DNA of 64,000 bases from an uncultured Williamsia sp. (GTDB lineage: Bacteria; Actinomycetota; Actinomycetes; Mycobacteriales; Mycobacteriaceae), in the NCBI RefSeq assembly GCF_947494875.1, contig NZ_CANLWM010000008.1, positions 1 through 64,000 of the forward strand, read 5' to 3'. The position numbers and the translations under genes were made by a program. Each line of letters begins with the position of its first letter. Within the stretch, counting starts at the first letter, position 1. Shown piece after piece: positions 2,353 through 48,396 of the stretch. Below the pieces are notes generated by a model. It was not told the DNA's origin, searched no databases, and saw only the letters and a program-made list of their open reading frames with translations.

Positions 2353-2391
2353 GAGAACCGACCCCTCCGTAGCGGACCGAAACACCTCGCC

Positions 2392-2452
2392 GAGCGTGCA
2401 GAAAAACGCCGTCGAGCGTGCGGTCGATCGCGTCGAGCGTGCAGTCGACCGC
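2392..2452. repeat. Tandem 21/22-bp repeat array (GAGCGTGC type)
   Basis: The core GAGCGTGC recurs at 2392, 2414 and 2435, with periods 22 and 21 bp. The array abuts the stop codon of the S4-domain gene (minus strand, stop at 2453). It belongs to the same family as the arrays at 33227, 34271, 43036 and 44063; the variant GAGCGTGC also opens the array at 43036. Function unknown. Confidence 0.7.
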
Positions 2453-2824
2453 TCAGTCGCGACCCCGGAGCCGGTCGGTCTCGCGCCGCTCGCGCTTGGT
2501 CGGGCGACCCGCTCCCCGCTCGCGGAGCGGGATCGCCGCGAGCAGTTCCTTCGGGGGCGGCGGTGGGCTGCGGTCGATCATCGCCGTCGCGGCGACCGGC
2601 GGTCCGACGCGTTTGGTCAGCACCTGCACCACCTCGACGATCCGGTCGCGGCCGGCGATCCGCAGGCGTACCTCGTCACCGACGGTGACGTGCTGTGCGG
2701 GCTTCGCCGGCGTGCCGTTCACCTTCACGTGCCCACCCCGACAGGCCGCGGCGGCCTGCGACCGCGTCTTGGTGAGCCGGACAGCCCAGATCCAGCTGTC
2801 GACGCGCACGCTGGGCTCGGCCAT
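2453..2824 (-). CDS. S4-domain RNA-binding protein (Hsp15/RqcP-like)
   Basis: A 123-residue protein beginning with an S4 RNA-binding fold: SVRVDSWIWAVRLTKTRSQA, then GGHVKVNGTPAKPAQHVTVGD. A basic tail follows (RGAGRPTKRERRETDRLRGRD). This layout is that of the Hsp15/HslR family, whose members bind large-subunit rRNA or peptidyl-tRNA on stalled 50S particles (family knowledge). The basic C-terminus fits RNA contact. The start ATG 2822-2824 has a TACCGT box 6 nt upstream and is probably leaderless. A 21-bp repeat array follows directly after its stop. Confidence 0.85.
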   Translation of the reverse strand: MAEPSVRVDSWIWAVRLTKTRSQAAAACRGGHVKVNGTPAKPAQHVTVGDEVRLRIAGRDRIVEVVQVLTKRVGPPVAATAMIDRSPPPPPKELLAAIPLRERGAGRPTKRERRETDRLRGRD

Positions 2825-33220: not shown

Positions 33221-33226
33221 CCGCCT

Positions 33227-33310
33227 GGACCCGTTCGTCGGGCGCTTGGAACCGTTCGTTGGGCGCTTGGACCCGTCGAGTGGGCAGTTGGAGCCGCCGA
33301 GTGGGCGGTT
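33227..33310. repeat. Exact 4 x 21-bp tandem repeat array after sixA
   Basis: Four units begin at 33227, 33248, 33269 and 33290. Cores are CCGTTCGTCGGGCG, CCGTTCGTTGGGCG, CCGTCGAGTGGGCA and CCGCCGAGTGGGCG. The array begins 6 nt after the sixA stop and ends at the first base of the stop codon of the convergent FAD gene. It is inverted relative to the array at 34271-34396 on the other side of that gene. No frame contains a stop codon. Confidence 0.85.
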
Positions 33311-34224
33311 CAGAGGCGCGGGAGCAGTGCCGCGGCGAGGTCGACGCCCGATCGCCACGCACTCTCGACGCGCGGCGCACCCTCGGGGCACCACTGGTCG
33401 CCGGCGAGTCCGACGACGCGATCGCCGTCGACGGCGACGTGACACGAGACATCGTGCTGCGCGGCCGGTTTCGCGAATGTCCATCGATGCGCGTGCGTCC
33501 ACGCGGGATCGCCGGTCCCGAGTAGTCGCCGCAGCGCGTCGACGACAGGCACGATCACGGCGTCCGGGTCGTCGAGATGCTGTCGCGCACGGTCGGGGGT
33601 GGTGTGGACGACGAGCACCGGCGCGTCGTCGCCGCGCCGCGAGCCGTCGTCGGCGAGGAAGGCCACGTCGGGGTGATCGTTGACGAATGCGGCGTGGTCG
33701 AAGGGCAGGTCCGGTCGACCGTCGAACCCGACGACGACGGCGATGACCGGCTCGTATTCGACGGGGTCCGGCACCTCGGCGAGACGCGCGGCCTGCGGAT
33801 CGGGCATGGCGACGACGACGTGGCCGGCGGGGAGGGCGTCGAGCGACGCGGTCTCGACCGGGATGTCGCCGAGGACGTCGCGGACCAGCGACCGCAGGCC
33901 ACCGTCCGTCGCCCAGCGTGTGGGTCCGGACTTCGTCGAGGGGGGCCCGTCGGGCGAGAGCACCCCGAACGTGTCGGTCCACGGCCGCGTCAGTCCCCGG
34001 TCGTGCCAATCATCGACGACAGCCTGGAAGCCGCTGTCGCGCACGGTGAAGTAGCCGGCTCCGGTGTCGACGCGGCGGTCGTGCAACGTCGGCGACGCCA
34101 TCCGACCGCCGGGCGCCCGCCCCCGGTCGACGACACGCACCTCGACCCCCGCGCGGACGAGTTCCGCGGCGCACGCCGCCCCCGACATGCCGGCTCCGAC
34201 GACGGTCACCCCTGCGCTGCTCAT
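33310..34224 (-). CDS. Renalase-like FAD/NAD(P)-binding oxidoreductase
   Basis: A 304-residue flavoprotein: VTVVGAGMSGAACAAELVRA (FAD Rossmann), VRVVDRGRAPGGRMA and a C-terminal VVGLAGDQW-CPEG with ESAWRSGVDLAAALL (second FAD contact). Small members of this amine-oxidase group include renalase and related NAD(P)H oxidases. The substrate is unknown. Probably leaderless (TACCGT, 34230-34235). It is flanked on both sides by inverted 21-bp repeat arrays. Confidence 0.8.
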   Translation of the reverse strand: MSSAGVTVVGAGMSGAACAAELVRAGVEVRVVDRGRAPGGRMASPTLHDRRVDTGAGYFTVRDSGFQAVVDDWHDRGLTRPWTDTFGVLSPDGPPSTKSGPTRWATDGGLRSLVRDVLGDIPVETASLDALPAGHVVVAMPDPQAARLAEVPDPVEYEPVIAVVVGFDGRPDLPFDHAAFVNDHPDVAFLADDGSRRGDDAPVLVVHTTPDRARQHLDDPDAVIVPVVDALRRLLGTGDPAWTHAHRWTFAKPAAQHDVSCHVAVDGDRVVGLAGDQWCPEGAPRVESAWRSGVDLAAALLPRL

Positions 34225-34235: not shown

Positions 34236-34270
34236 ACCGCGCGCCCGCAACGACTTGCCGACGCCGCGAG

Positions 34271-34396
34271 CGCCCACTCGACGTCTCCAACCGCCCACTC
34301 GACGGTTCCTGGCGCCCAACGAACGGCTCCGGGTGCCCAACGAACGGTTCCTGCCGCCCACTCGACGGCTCCGGGCGCCCAACGAACGGGGGGCGG
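34271..34396. repeat. Exact 6 x 21-bp tandem repeat array after the aidB-like gene
   Basis: Units begin at 34271, 34292, 34313, 34334, 34355 and 34376. Plus-strand cores alternate CGCCCACTCGACGG and CGCCCAACGAACGG. The array ends at 34396, immediately next to the stop codon (34397-34399) of the aidB-like gene. It is inverted with respect to the array at 33227-33310. Confidence 0.88.
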
Positions 34397-41919: not shown

Positions 41920-43020
41920 GTGACGCTGCGGGAGCATGTCTCCCGGGTCGAGCTCGTCGACCACCACGTCCACGGGCGGTGGGTTGCCGACGGTGACGCC
42001 GCGCGGCTCGCCGCCGCGCTGAACGAGGCGGACCCCGACCCGGTCACCGCCGCCACGTCGGGCTGGGACACCCAACTCGGGTTCGCGGTCCGCGCCCGGT
42101 GTGCACCTCTGCTGGACCTTCCCCGCCACGCGTCACCGTCGGACTACTGTGCCCGCCGCGCCGAACTCGGTGAGGACGAGGTGTCGCGGCGGTTCCTGAC
42201 CGCGGCCGGCGTCTCGACGTGGCTGGTGGACACCGGGTTCCACGCCGGACTCACCGATCCGGACGACCTCGCCGCCCTCGGTGGCGGCGCCGCGCACGAG
42301 GTGGTTCGGCTCGAGGAGATCGCCGAGCAGGCCGCCGCCGCCCCGCGGAACTATGCCGACGAATTCGTCGAGATCCTGCGCCGCAGAACGGGTGCCGCCG
42401 TGGCGACGAAGTCGGTTCTGGCCTACCGCGGCGGGTTCGGCGGGGACCTGTCGGACCCGCCGGAACGACTCGTCGATCTCGCTGCCGACCGGTGGCGATC
42501 GGAGGGCGGCACCCGTCTGACCGATCGCGTGCTGCTGCGCTTCGGGCTGCACCGCGCGCTCGACGTCGGGCTGCCGCTGCAGTTCCACGTCGGGTTCGGT
42601 GACCGCGACGCGCGGTTGTCGCAGACCGATCCCCTGCTGCTCGACGAGTTCCTCCGTGGCGCAGGCGATGTGCCGATCATGCTGCTGCACTGCTACCCCT
42701 GGGAACGGCAGGCCGGCTACCTCGCCCAGGCGTTCCCGTCTGTCCATCTCGACGGCGGCTTGTCGATCCACCACCTCGGCGCGCGGTCGGGACCGTTCGT
42801 CGGGCGACTGCTGGAGATGGCGCCGTTCACGAAGGTGCTCTACTCCTCCGACGGCTGCGGCCCGGCCGAGTTCCACTACCTCGGCGCCGCGCTGTGGCGG
42901 GACGGGATGGCGTCGGTGCTGTCGGGTTTCGTCGACGCAGACGAGTGGTCGCTCGACGACGCCGTCGGTGTCGCCGACATGATCGCCCACGGCAACGCCC
43001 GCCGCGTCTACCGCCTCTGA
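41920..43020 (+). CDS. Amidohydrolase-2 family hydrolase, partner of the GS-like ligase
   Basis: A 366-residue TIM-barrel hydrolase: VELVDHHVHGRWVAD (metal HxH), QFHVGFGDRDARL (metal His), IMLLHCYPWERQAGYLAQAF and VLYSSDGCGPAEFHYLG (acidic metal ligand). It likely cleaves a gamma-glutamyl or related amide made by the neighbouring ligase, or acts in the reverse direction in catabolism. The start is GTG 41920 or 41911. It is 13 bp from the ligase stop, so co-transcribed. A 5-unit repeat array begins 15 bp after its stop. Confidence 0.8.
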   Translation: MTLREHVSRVELVDHHVHGRWVADGDAARLAAALNEADPDPVTAATSGWDTQLGFAVRARCAPLLDLPRHASPSDYCARRAELGEDEVSRRFLTAAGVSTWLVDTGFHAGLTDPDDLAALGGGAAHEVVRLEEIAEQAAAAPRNYADEFVEILRRRTGAAVATKSVLAYRGGFGGDLSDPPERLVDLAADRWRSEGGTRLTDRVLLRFGLHRALDVGLPLQFHVGFGDRDARLSQTDPLLLDEFLRGAGDVPIMLLHCYPWERQAGYLAQAFPSVHLDGGLSIHHLGARSGPFVGRLLEMAPFTKVLYSSDGCGPAEFHYLGAALWRDGMASVLSGFVDADEWSLDDAVGVADMIAHGNARRVYRL

Positions 43021-43035
43021 CCCCGCGCGACACTC

Positions 43036-43140
43036 CCCGAGCGTGCATCAGATCCCGCCCAACGTGCGGTCCATCCCGCCCACCGTGCGGTAGATCCCGC
43101 CCACCGTGCGGTAGATCCCACCCACCGTGCAGTCCAAACC
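43036..43140. repeat. Exact 5 x 21-bp tandem repeat array upstream of the AbiEi/DUF559-like gene
   Basis: Units begin at 43036, 43057, 43078, 43099 and 43120. Cores read CCCGAGCGTGCATCAGATC, GCCCAACGTGCGG and GCCCACCGTGCGGTAGATC. Orientation is opposite to the array at 44063-44280. Confidence 0.87.
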
Positions 43141-43178
43141 CGAGTGAACCGTTCGACGACCACGTGCGTCCAACAAAC

Positions 43179-44060
43179 ATGAGCATCGACAACCGGCCGT
43201 TCGCACTTGGCGACCACAGCCTGCCGGGCCACATCCGTCCGCGCGACATCCGCAGAGACTTCCGCATGGTGCATCGAGGTGTGTACGCGGAGGCGGCGGT
43301 CCCGCTGTCCCCCGTCGAGACGATTCGCGCTGCGTGGCTGCGGGCCGGACCCGACTCCGTGGTCGGGGGCATCAGTGCAGCAGTCCTTCACGGCGCGACC
43401 TTCTTCGATCATGGTGCGACCGTCGAGCTGATCCGGCCGCCGACCGGTCAGGCACGGCGATTCAACGATGTCCGCGTCCATCGCACAGAGCTGAACCCGG
43501 CCGATGTGGTCGTCGTCGACGGCATGCCGGTGACGTCGCCGATCAGGACTGCGTTCGATCTCGGACGGCGCTCGCCCGCCTGGATTGCCCTGGCGCATCT
43601 CGACGATCTCACACGCGCGACCGACCTCGATCACATGGAACTGTGGCGGTTCGTCGTCGCCCATCCCGCGGTGCGCAACATCCGACAGCTTCGTGGGCTC
43701 GTGCCGTGGATCGACGCCGGCGCGGAGTCATCCGGCGAGAGCTGGACTCGCCACCTCATCCTCGCCGACGGACTGCCCAGGCCCGAGACGCAGGTGAAGG
43801 TCTACGACGAACACGGAACCATCATCGCGAAGTTCGACCTGGCATACCGCCGGGAGAAGATCGGCGTCGAGTTCGACGGCTTCGAATACCACTACAGCGA
43901 CGACCAACGGCTCTCCAACGCCACACGTGACCGACAGACCTCCGGCCTCGGGTGGCACACCGAGCGACGGAACAGCGTGCAATTGTCGGGTGACCCGATC
44001 GGCTTTCTCTCCTGTCTTCGCGGTCTGCTCGACTCCCGCGGGCGCCGACGAGGGCGCTGA
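43179..44060 (+). CDS. AbiEi-like winged-helix protein with DUF559/Vsr-like nuclease C-terminus
   Basis: A 293-residue protein. The N-terminal half (IRRDFRMVHRGVYAEAAVPL, GGISAAVLHGATFFDHGATV, RVHRTELNPADVVVVDGMPV) resembles AbiEi-type antitoxin/transcriptional proteins. The C-terminal half has IAKFDLAYRREKIGVEFDGFEYHY, a PD-(D/E)xK-type active site of Vsr/DUF559 nucleases with Asp and Glu in the right spacing. It might be a defence-associated nuclease or a DNA-repair protein. Start ATG 43179. Flanked on both sides by inverted 21-bp arrays. Confidence 0.7.
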   Translation: MSIDNRPFALGDHSLPGHIRPRDIRRDFRMVHRGVYAEAAVPLSPVETIRAAWLRAGPDSVVGGISAAVLHGATFFDHGATVELIRPPTGQARRFNDVRVHRTELNPADVVVVDGMPVTSPIRTAFDLGRRSPAWIALAHLDDLTRATDLDHMELWRFVVAHPAVRNIRQLRGLVPWIDAGAESSGESWTRHLILADGLPRPETQVKVYDEHGTIIAKFDLAYRREKIGVEFDGFEYHYSDDQRLSNATRDRQTSGLGWHTERRNSVQLSGDPIGFLSCLRGLLDSRGRRRGR

Positions 44061-44062
44061 GT

Positions 44063-44280
44063 GCACACTCGGCAGGATCCACCGCACGGTGGGCGATATC
44101 TGGTGCACGGTCTCCTGCATCTACCGCACGGTGGGCGAGATCTGGTGCACGGTGGGCGAGATCTGGTGCACGGTGGGCGAGATCTGGTGCACGGTGGGCG
44201 ATATCTGGTGCACGGTCGGCGGGTTCACGCGGGACGGGATCTGGTGCACGGTGGGCGGGTTCACGCGAGATGGGTCGGGT
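44063..44280. repeat. Tandem 21-bp repeat array after the AbiEi/DUF559-like gene
   Basis: GCAC cores recur at 44063, 44084, 44105, 44126, 44147, 44168, 44189 and 44210 (exactly 21 bp apart), then at 44246. The typical core is GCACGGTGGGCGAGATCTGG. The array starts 2 nt after the stop codon (44058-44060) and is inverted relative to the array at 43036-43140. It shows no stop codon in the main frames and fills most of the 379-bp gap to rpoC. Confidence 0.88.

Positions 44281-44439: not shown

Positions 44440-48396
<3,957 letters not shown>

Follow-up and report, generated by a model that had tools for sequence, protein, structure and literature searches.

Why should a single Williamsia gene stand between two arrays of the same short repeat that face each other in opposite orientation? 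The question is raised by the window, a 64,000-nucleotide stretch that forms part of contig C8 in a genome of 4.77 Mb and 17 contigs. An initial annotation had described arrays of five and eight units with a common core round a 293-residue gene, and both were found (Table 1); the core common to the two is CACCGTGCGG / ACCGTGC. The exact register claimed for the right array applies to seven units (44072–44218), the eighth (44234–44254) following after a 36-bp step. The locus runs from an amidohydrolase gene (ending at 43020) through left array, gene and right array to rpoC, which ends at 44440 on the strand opposite to the nuclease-like gene. At a lag of 21 bp, 31/32 and 32/32 letters of the two arrays are identical, whereas 2000 letter shuffles of each reach no more than 22 and 21. 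No right partner was found for the class A array near the start of the window.

Table 1. Arrays and enclosed genes in the window, with the loci of other genera that carry paired palindromes. The strand of an array is the one on which its unit reads in the left orientation.
Feature	Position or locus	Strand
Left-type class A array, three units	2391..2454	+
Left-type array, classes B and C mixed, four units, in the convergent gap before the FAD oxidase gene	33222..33307	+
FAD-dependent amine-oxidase-like gene between left and right array	33310..34224	-
Right-type array, classes B and C mixed, six units	34270..34389	-
Left array, class A, five 21-bp units (CGAGCGTGCATCAGATCCCGC ... CCACCGTGCAGTCCAAACCCG)	43038..43142	+
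AbiEi-type gene, Vsr/PD-(D/E)xK-like C-terminal domain, 293 aa	43179..44060	+
Right array, class A, eight units, inverted	44072..44254	-
Loci with paired palindromes	L145, L147, L149-L151, L153, L182, L184	

Among named relatives, Williamsia deligens and W. serinedens come closest when judged by the window protein (88% identity). Pfam returns two matches and nothing else: AbiEi_1 (PF09407), with an E-value of 2.4e-8 and 34.7 bits against a cut-off of 22.2, and, at the C-terminus, the MTES_1575 nuclease family at E 7e-5, which is below the cut-off. The PD-(D/E)xK-like C-terminus of the initial annotation is thus matched at a sub-threshold level, behind a clear AbiEi match that is also made by the PADLOC AbiEi profile (E 5e-18). 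An NCBIfam search assigned no family, and the profile of the clade, defined as AbiEi-type nuclease genes at least 47% identical to the window gene, matched no solved structure in the PDB by sequence. A structure was modelled with AlphaFold2 from 18 clade sequences (pLDDT 81). In Foldseek this model matches Rv2827c (1zel; E 1e-4), and in a stretch of about 100 columns its C-terminal part resembles the catalytic domain of the homing endonuclease I-Bth0305I (3r3p; E 0.078, Foldseek probability 1.00, TM-score on target 0.76, rmsd 3.1). Eight residues, E183, E187, Q205, D220, K227, D233, H238 and D251, are invariant across the 18 sequences, and those of catalytic type among them (E183, E187, D220, K227, D233, H238) count in favour of a predicted nuclease; the usual PD-(D/E)xK lysine is missing from its expected place. 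The model suggests a protein in which an AbiEi part is joined to a Vsr/homing-endonuclease-like domain predicted to cut DNA.

The window genome has three clade genes, each with its own class of unit: class A in the window, class B at C2:52753-53598 and class C at C4:302867-303676. When their translations were inspected by eye, no AbiEii-like toxin gene was seen within two genes on either side of the three. In 8 Williamsia genomes every one of the 19 clade genes adjoins an array that scores at least 26/32, with a period of 21 (22 in three). On the other flank the inverted partner is recognisable in 18 of the 19, being weaker (20–21/32) in four, and the remaining flank is masked. The same picture was obtained from 80 loci of named genomes, a set that overlaps the 19 and was grouped by genus. 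Both flanks reach at least 23/32 in 24 of the 28 Williamsia and Gordonia loci, or 27 of 28 with a threshold of at least 21, and at 23/32 in none of the 52 more distant relatives. Among 903 sampled genes of 600–1300 bp, from a control in which some stretches had been chosen for holding clade genes, 10 are flanked on both sides: five clade genes, three FAD oxidase orthologs, an oxidoreductase between arrays that are next to an AbiEi gene, and a single other gene. The data support the view that an inverted pair of arrays round a clade gene is no accident.

The FAD oxidase gene at 33 kb is a counterexample to an exclusive link between arrays and AbiEi-type genes. In the window genome, G001 and G005 alike it has a left array on one side and a right array on the other, with a different unit class in each genome (mixed B/C, C and B, respectively). 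Together with its orthologs and a TetR-like gene of Gordonia oryzae that is likewise enclosed, it shows that the arrays are not private to one gene. The geometry said to recur at 33–34 kb with another sequence variant does recur, as an enclosed gene, but these arrays are mixtures of classes (the one at 34 kb has three B cores and three C cores). Nor do the data support arrays kept as a unit round a single gene, since the same units recur in dozens of other gaps, often as inverted pairs with no gene inside. The telling unit is the gene together with its genome-wide class of repeat.

Some neighbouring observations may be recorded here. Arrays also occur at 3 of 14 loci of distant AbiEi-nuclease paralogs, with lags of 19–20. 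More distant paralogs at G001 C1 (about 2443048-2443995), L032 and L053 have flanking arrays of period 19 with a different core, of the GTGCGAAC type in two, and one of them had surfaced as a control gene. An earlier impression of paralogous genes without arrays came from scans with the class A matrix alone and was overturned by the class-free lag scan. One of the 28 Williamsia and Gordonia loci, L125, is labelled Kitasatospora arboriphila and is syntenic with Williamsia muralis and W. limnetica round the clade gene; the record may be a contamination or a mislabelling.

In left-array orientation the class A unit is CGAGCGTGCAGTAGATCCCGC, and the units of classes B, C, D and E are of the types GTTCGTTGGGCGGTCGGAACC, GTCGAGTGGGCGGTTGGAGAC, CAGTTGGGCACGTAAACCCGT and GCGTTGGGCCGTTGTTCCCGC, respectively. 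By eye, the letters GTAG are present in class A units and absent from the printed B, C, D and E units. Over 400 kb of contig C1, the class A matrix finds four opposed pairs without a gene and one single array; in the pairs, the first inverted unit begins 25 or 46 bp (25 + 21) after the last forward unit. A class-free lag scan covered the intergenic gaps, by our own simple gene caller, in 704 kb of the window genome, 214 kb of G001, 134 kb of G003 and 94 kb of G002. Strong 21-bp repeats were found in 15/53 convergent gaps, in 9/115 and 4/103 tandem gaps, and in 1/140 divergent gaps. The control lags of 16, 17 and 23–27 never mark more than one gap of a given type, and lag 22 up to three. An enlarged sample, in which lags 21 and 22 were taken, two copies of a class core were required and gaps beside clade genes were included, gave 24/110, 11/249 and 10/185, and 2/271 gaps with arrays, respectively. 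Left-only and right-only arrays occur too. The first 80 kb of G002 yielded no array in the class-free scan, and a 200-kb sample of G007 no clear array of that genome's own gene classes. Only one of 1768 called genes contains an array, which is of class C and lies in a very long called gene (49630-67383 in the G001 C1 sample from 2355000); this may be an error of gene calling or a true in-frame array.

This distribution bears on whether the protein is a regulator or chromosome organiser of benefit to the host, with the arrays as clustered binding sites at gene ends, those beside the gene as its operator, and the nuclease domain secondary or inactive. According to PMC7319586, the promoters of AbiEi genes contain 23-bp inverted repeats to which the AbiEi protein itself binds, and through such repeats of about 23 bp the known AbiEi proteins regulate themselves. 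The upstream array here would be well placed for that, since it stops 36 bp before the start codon, and genes of the same class tend to share one locus in several species. The scarcity of arrays inside genes and in divergent gaps would also suit such a role. However, autoregulation leaves the downstream array unexplained; arrays are commonest in convergent gaps rather than at promoters; the nuclease-type residues are invariant in all 18 sequences; and several classes exist side by side in one genome. We regard such a role in regulation or chromosome organisation as unlikely, at perhaps one chance in five. The preference for convergent gaps, with an inverted layout that is able to fold, is also what would be expected if the arrays acted in RNA, as the paired arms of hairpins that terminate or stabilise transcripts, the nuclease gene lying between the arms by chance. 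This is very improbable: left-only and right-only arrays exist, the two arms at a clade locus have a gene of about 0.9 kb between them, a hairpin belonging to rpoC and distinct from the arrays is seen by eye ahead of them, and the class of the arrays follows the gene.

That last point was quantified by counting exact pattern matches to classes A–E on both strands of 8 whole genomes. The patterns were picked from arrays of these same genomes; being exact 13–14-mers, they leave variants uncounted, for example the CTGTTGGGC form in G001. In what follows G000 is the window genome; we take G005 to be W. serinedens, G001 W. deligens, G003 W. maris, G002 W. herbipolensis, G006 a Williamsia metagenome-assembled genome (MAG) and G007 strain CHRR-6. 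Class A has 51, 61 and 20 matches in G000, G005 and G001, all of which have a class A gene, and 10, 5, 7, 4 and 4 in the five genomes that lack one; none of these latter 30 lies 21 bp from another, so that all are single. For class B the numbers with the gene are 57, 74 and 11 (G000, G005, G001), and without it 1 in G003 and 0 in the other four. Class D reaches 53, 70, 49 and 25 in G002, G003, G004 and G006, which have a class D gene, and 0 in the other four. Class E reaches 29, 19 and 10 with its gene (G003, G004, G006), and without it 2 in G002 and 0 in four others.

Class C departs from this pattern. The three genomes with a class C gene have 80, 92 and 73 copies, but G005 has 50, although a protein search found no class C gene there and the counterpart of locus II, the class C gene locus, was not found in ten G005 stretches. 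A further 24, 25 and 12 copies occur in three genomes with a class D gene at that locus, and 2 elsewhere. The copies outside genomes with a class C gene are presumably leftovers. The correspondence between class and gene across genomes holds for classes A, B, D and E, and in part for C. This correspondence already speaks against replication slippage in G+C-rich spacers as a full account. Slippage, with the gene link a coincidence, would explain why unit number differs between species at the same position; it would not explain how one unit comes to occupy dozens of unlinked places while sister genomes have zero copies, why lag 21 should mark so many more gaps than the control lags, or the strong association with the gene, and we give it next to no credence.

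Comparison of flanks shows how the units have changed at fixed positions. One syntenic locus holds a class C gene in the window genome and in W. deligens, and a class D gene in W. maris, W. herbipolensis, G004 and the MAG (that is, G003, G002, G004 and G006); the genes of W. sterculiae and CHRR-6, with 22-bp units, are at the same locus with one flank matched. Array similarity at this locus is 0.74–0.93 among the class D members and 0.45–0.50 between these and the class C arrays of the window genome. Since an orthologous gene has other units at one and the same locus, the flanking units have changed by lineage, and the C and D counts indicate that the genome-wide copies differ by lineage likewise. 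In the nearest relative the positions of arrays are mostly kept and the units altered, with mixed arrays present: of nine conserved array gaps, seven have an array in both the window genome and G005. With G001 the threshold is passed in both genomes at two of six array gaps, weaker arrays being readable in the other genome's gap. A single array of G004 (C1 93104-93238) has cores of two classes, three of D and two of C, as though one class were replacing the other.

The flanked gene is itself variable at the rpoC locus, where the lag scan detects arrays in seven genomes (in G003 on the rpoC side only). Between the arrays there are an AbiEi gene and a Pyr_redox_2 oxidoreductase in G005 and G001, the AbiEi gene alone in the window genome, the oxidoreductase alone in G003, G004 and G006 (54–56% identical to that of G005), and no gene between the opposed class D arrays of G002. 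In G005 and G001 (L069, L070) the oxidoreductase, absent from the window genome, is situated between the amidohydrolase and AbiEi genes. The arrays on either side of it in G005 face the same way, and recombination between two such arrays would explain its deletion simply.

Variation of this kind is what would be expected if the arrays were sites for the exchange of single genes and the enclosed genes were cassettes, a reading close to that of the initial annotation. The likeness of the two arrays of a pair was measured as well. In gaps without a gene, opposed arrays have a similarity of 0.711 (11 pairs), the same as the 0.711 of 202 other pairs of their class, so that no excess likeness is seen there; the suggested duplication of the pair as a unit is supported in part only. 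By comparison, the value is 0.70 for the same gap in another species, 0.76 within one array and 0.547 between different classes; 40 of the 106 arrays were dropped from this test for lack of two copies of a known core, and longer arrays score higher by construction. Gene-enclosing pairs did not enter it as pairs, and seven were measured separately. In all seven the left–right similarity is above the class mean of the genome, by 0.01–0.09 (0.767 against 0.675 for the window pair), which raises the probability of gene exchange slightly. The homogeneity attributed to the pair is therefore present to a small degree, but some array elsewhere is more alike in four of the seven cases and ties in one. 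Over all pairs, protein identity and array similarity give a Spearman coefficient of 0.176 (18/2000 permutations as high); between different loci it is 0.063 and not significant (351/2000). Two observations count against exchange: in gaps conserved with G005 or G001, the relative has extra genes at 1/15 array gaps and 13/292 array-less gaps, and a single family makes up half of the control-sample genes that have arrays on both sides. We consider such exchange improbable, more so than a regulatory role.

We think it somewhat better than an even bet that the gene and its repeats form a two-part system, in which each class consists of one resident predicted nuclease gene and a dependent population of non-coding arrays whose unit is a putative binding site. 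In outline, the AbiEi part would bind each unit of about 21 bp, opposed arrays would present a two-sided site, and the Vsr-like domain would nick or cut the array. Repair from another copy of the array could then spread the class, alter the number of units and overwrite older classes, leaving mixed arrays, while the gene would persist as the copy that carries the enzyme. The linkage of genes with arrays, the correspondence of class and gene (for class C in part), the turnover of units at fixed positions and the invariance of catalytic-type residues are observed directly; the binding, cutting and repair-driven spread, and any gain for the host, are inferred. That known AbiEi proteins bind 23-bp repeats (PMC7319586) counts in favour of this reading. 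Whether selfish or regulatory in its effect, the gene probably acts together with its repeats. We count against the two-part system the class C exceptions, the other enclosed genes, the G007 and G002 samples without arrays, the two-in-six agreement with G001, the failure of protein identity to predict array similarity between different loci, the displaced PD-(D/E)xK lysine, the scarcity of arrays at distant paralogs (3 of 14 loci) and the choice of patterns from the very genomes counted.

The closest parallel in logic is the REPtron. According to PMC8266576 and PMC3733652, REP, BIME and REPIN repeats are short, extragenic, in opposed pairs and present in many copies, and gene and repeat presence are often correlated; the TnpA-REP (RAYT) gene, which mostly occurs once per genome, lies close to its repeats (PMC8266576). 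Here, too, an enzyme gene is flanked by its own repeats at most Williamsia and Gordonia loci, and the repeats are dispersed and correlated with the gene over five classes in 8 genomes, with class C in part. The enzyme, by Pfam and fold, is a predicted AbiEi and Vsr-like nuclease in place of an HUH tyrosine transposase, and the repeats are head-to-tail units of 21–22 bp where a REP is a 20–50-nt palindrome preceded by a GTAG-type tetranucleotide. Since neither enzyme nor repeats are related to those of a REPtron, the system is not a member of that group, though its logic is alike.

Three other kinds of element share some of these features. Like MITEs, which are miniature derivatives of transposons, the system may be seen as a gene-bearing element with inverted ends plus many gene-less copies of those ends, but here the ends are tandem arrays. 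From homing endonucleases there is the catalytic fold of I-Bth0305I, a Vsr-like enzyme, and a gene that may lie inside a split recognition region. The gene differs in being free-standing and intergenic, not seen in an intron or intein, and in that many putative sites are empty with one gene per class; the gene-less opposed pair of G002 at the rpoC locus is a candidate empty site, but of class D. With AbiE type IV toxin–antitoxin systems the window protein shares the AbiEi domain, by profile and by fold (Rv2827c), and the length of its units is near the 23 bp of the repeats bound by AbiEi proteins (PMC7319586); 21-bp units, as putative binding sites, lie upstream of its start codon. It differs by the missing AbiEii toxin gene beside the clade genes of the window genome, by the extra nuclease domain, and by repeats that flank the gene and recur throughout the genome, where AbiE has them at the promoter only. 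From CRISPR arrays the arrays are distinguished by contiguous 21-mers without unique spacers. Among the papers listed by searches of the open PMC library, none, judged by title and opening of the abstract, dealt with these arrays or with AbiEi/DUF559 genes accompanied by dispersed repeats.

If true, the two-part system would give a function to stand-alone actinobacterial genes of AbiEi/DUF559 type, which are named after toxin–antitoxin parts and here adjoin no toxin gene, and would account for repeats that are numerous between genes. A further implication would be more than one origin for the REPtron principle, in which many repeats depend on a single resident enzyme. One genome can hold several classes, each with its enzyme, and species differ in class at equivalent positions, so that the co-evolution of nuclease and site could be tested directly.

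Does the association extend beyond Williamsia? Beside the genes of Mycobacterium, Nocardia, Rhodococcus and other relatives we found no tandem arrays, but often an imperfect palindrome of about 57–65 bp on one or both sides. A palindrome score of at least 13 is reached at 61/104 flanks, compared with 1/104 after shuffling and 30/300 flanks of Williamsia control genes, and palindromes are present on both sides at 21/52 loci, compared with 2/150 controls. The two flanks align with a score above 50 at 19/52 loci (15/912 for Williamsia control genes), and at 12/52 the alignment is above the 99% point of mismatched loci. Extra copies of the palindromes inside short Mycobacteriales loci were not beyond chance (1/60 against 1/240). 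In Mycobacterium, Nocardia, Rhodococcus, Aldersonia and Antrihabitans, loci were seen where palindromes flank the gene on the left and on the right; the two resemble each other at a given locus but differ from species to species. A phage link of the arrays and their genes, sought in viral contigs, gave 31 candidate stretches, none confirmed. Taken at its broadest, the reading would be that AbiEi-Vsr-type predicted nucleases each drive private extragenic repeats across Mycobacteriales by cutting them so that repair copies the repeat, as a counterpart of REPIN/RAYT with an unrelated enzyme, the specificity of the protein and its sites, scores of them per genome, changing together; we put this at just short of an even chance. 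We hold with the same reserve that the repeats of such a family would take the form of palindromes in Mycobacterium, Nocardia and Rhodococcus, of 21–22-bp arrays in Williamsia and Gordonia, and of 19-bp arrays in a sister family.

Gordonia oryzae has arrays of its own. In 300 kb of this genome lag 21 marks 8 gaps and other lags between 17 and 26 mark 0–2; all eight printed arrays share, by eye, a core of the CCGACAGCGC type or close variants, and two of them flank the clade gene. An exact 14-mer of the class has 0 copies in four other Gordonia genomes and G000, and 8 in G. oryzae, six beside the gene and two on other contigs. The G. oryzae gene that appears TetR-like by eye (G008 C18 97521-98153) has a left array on one side and a right array on the other, both of the class found in that genome.
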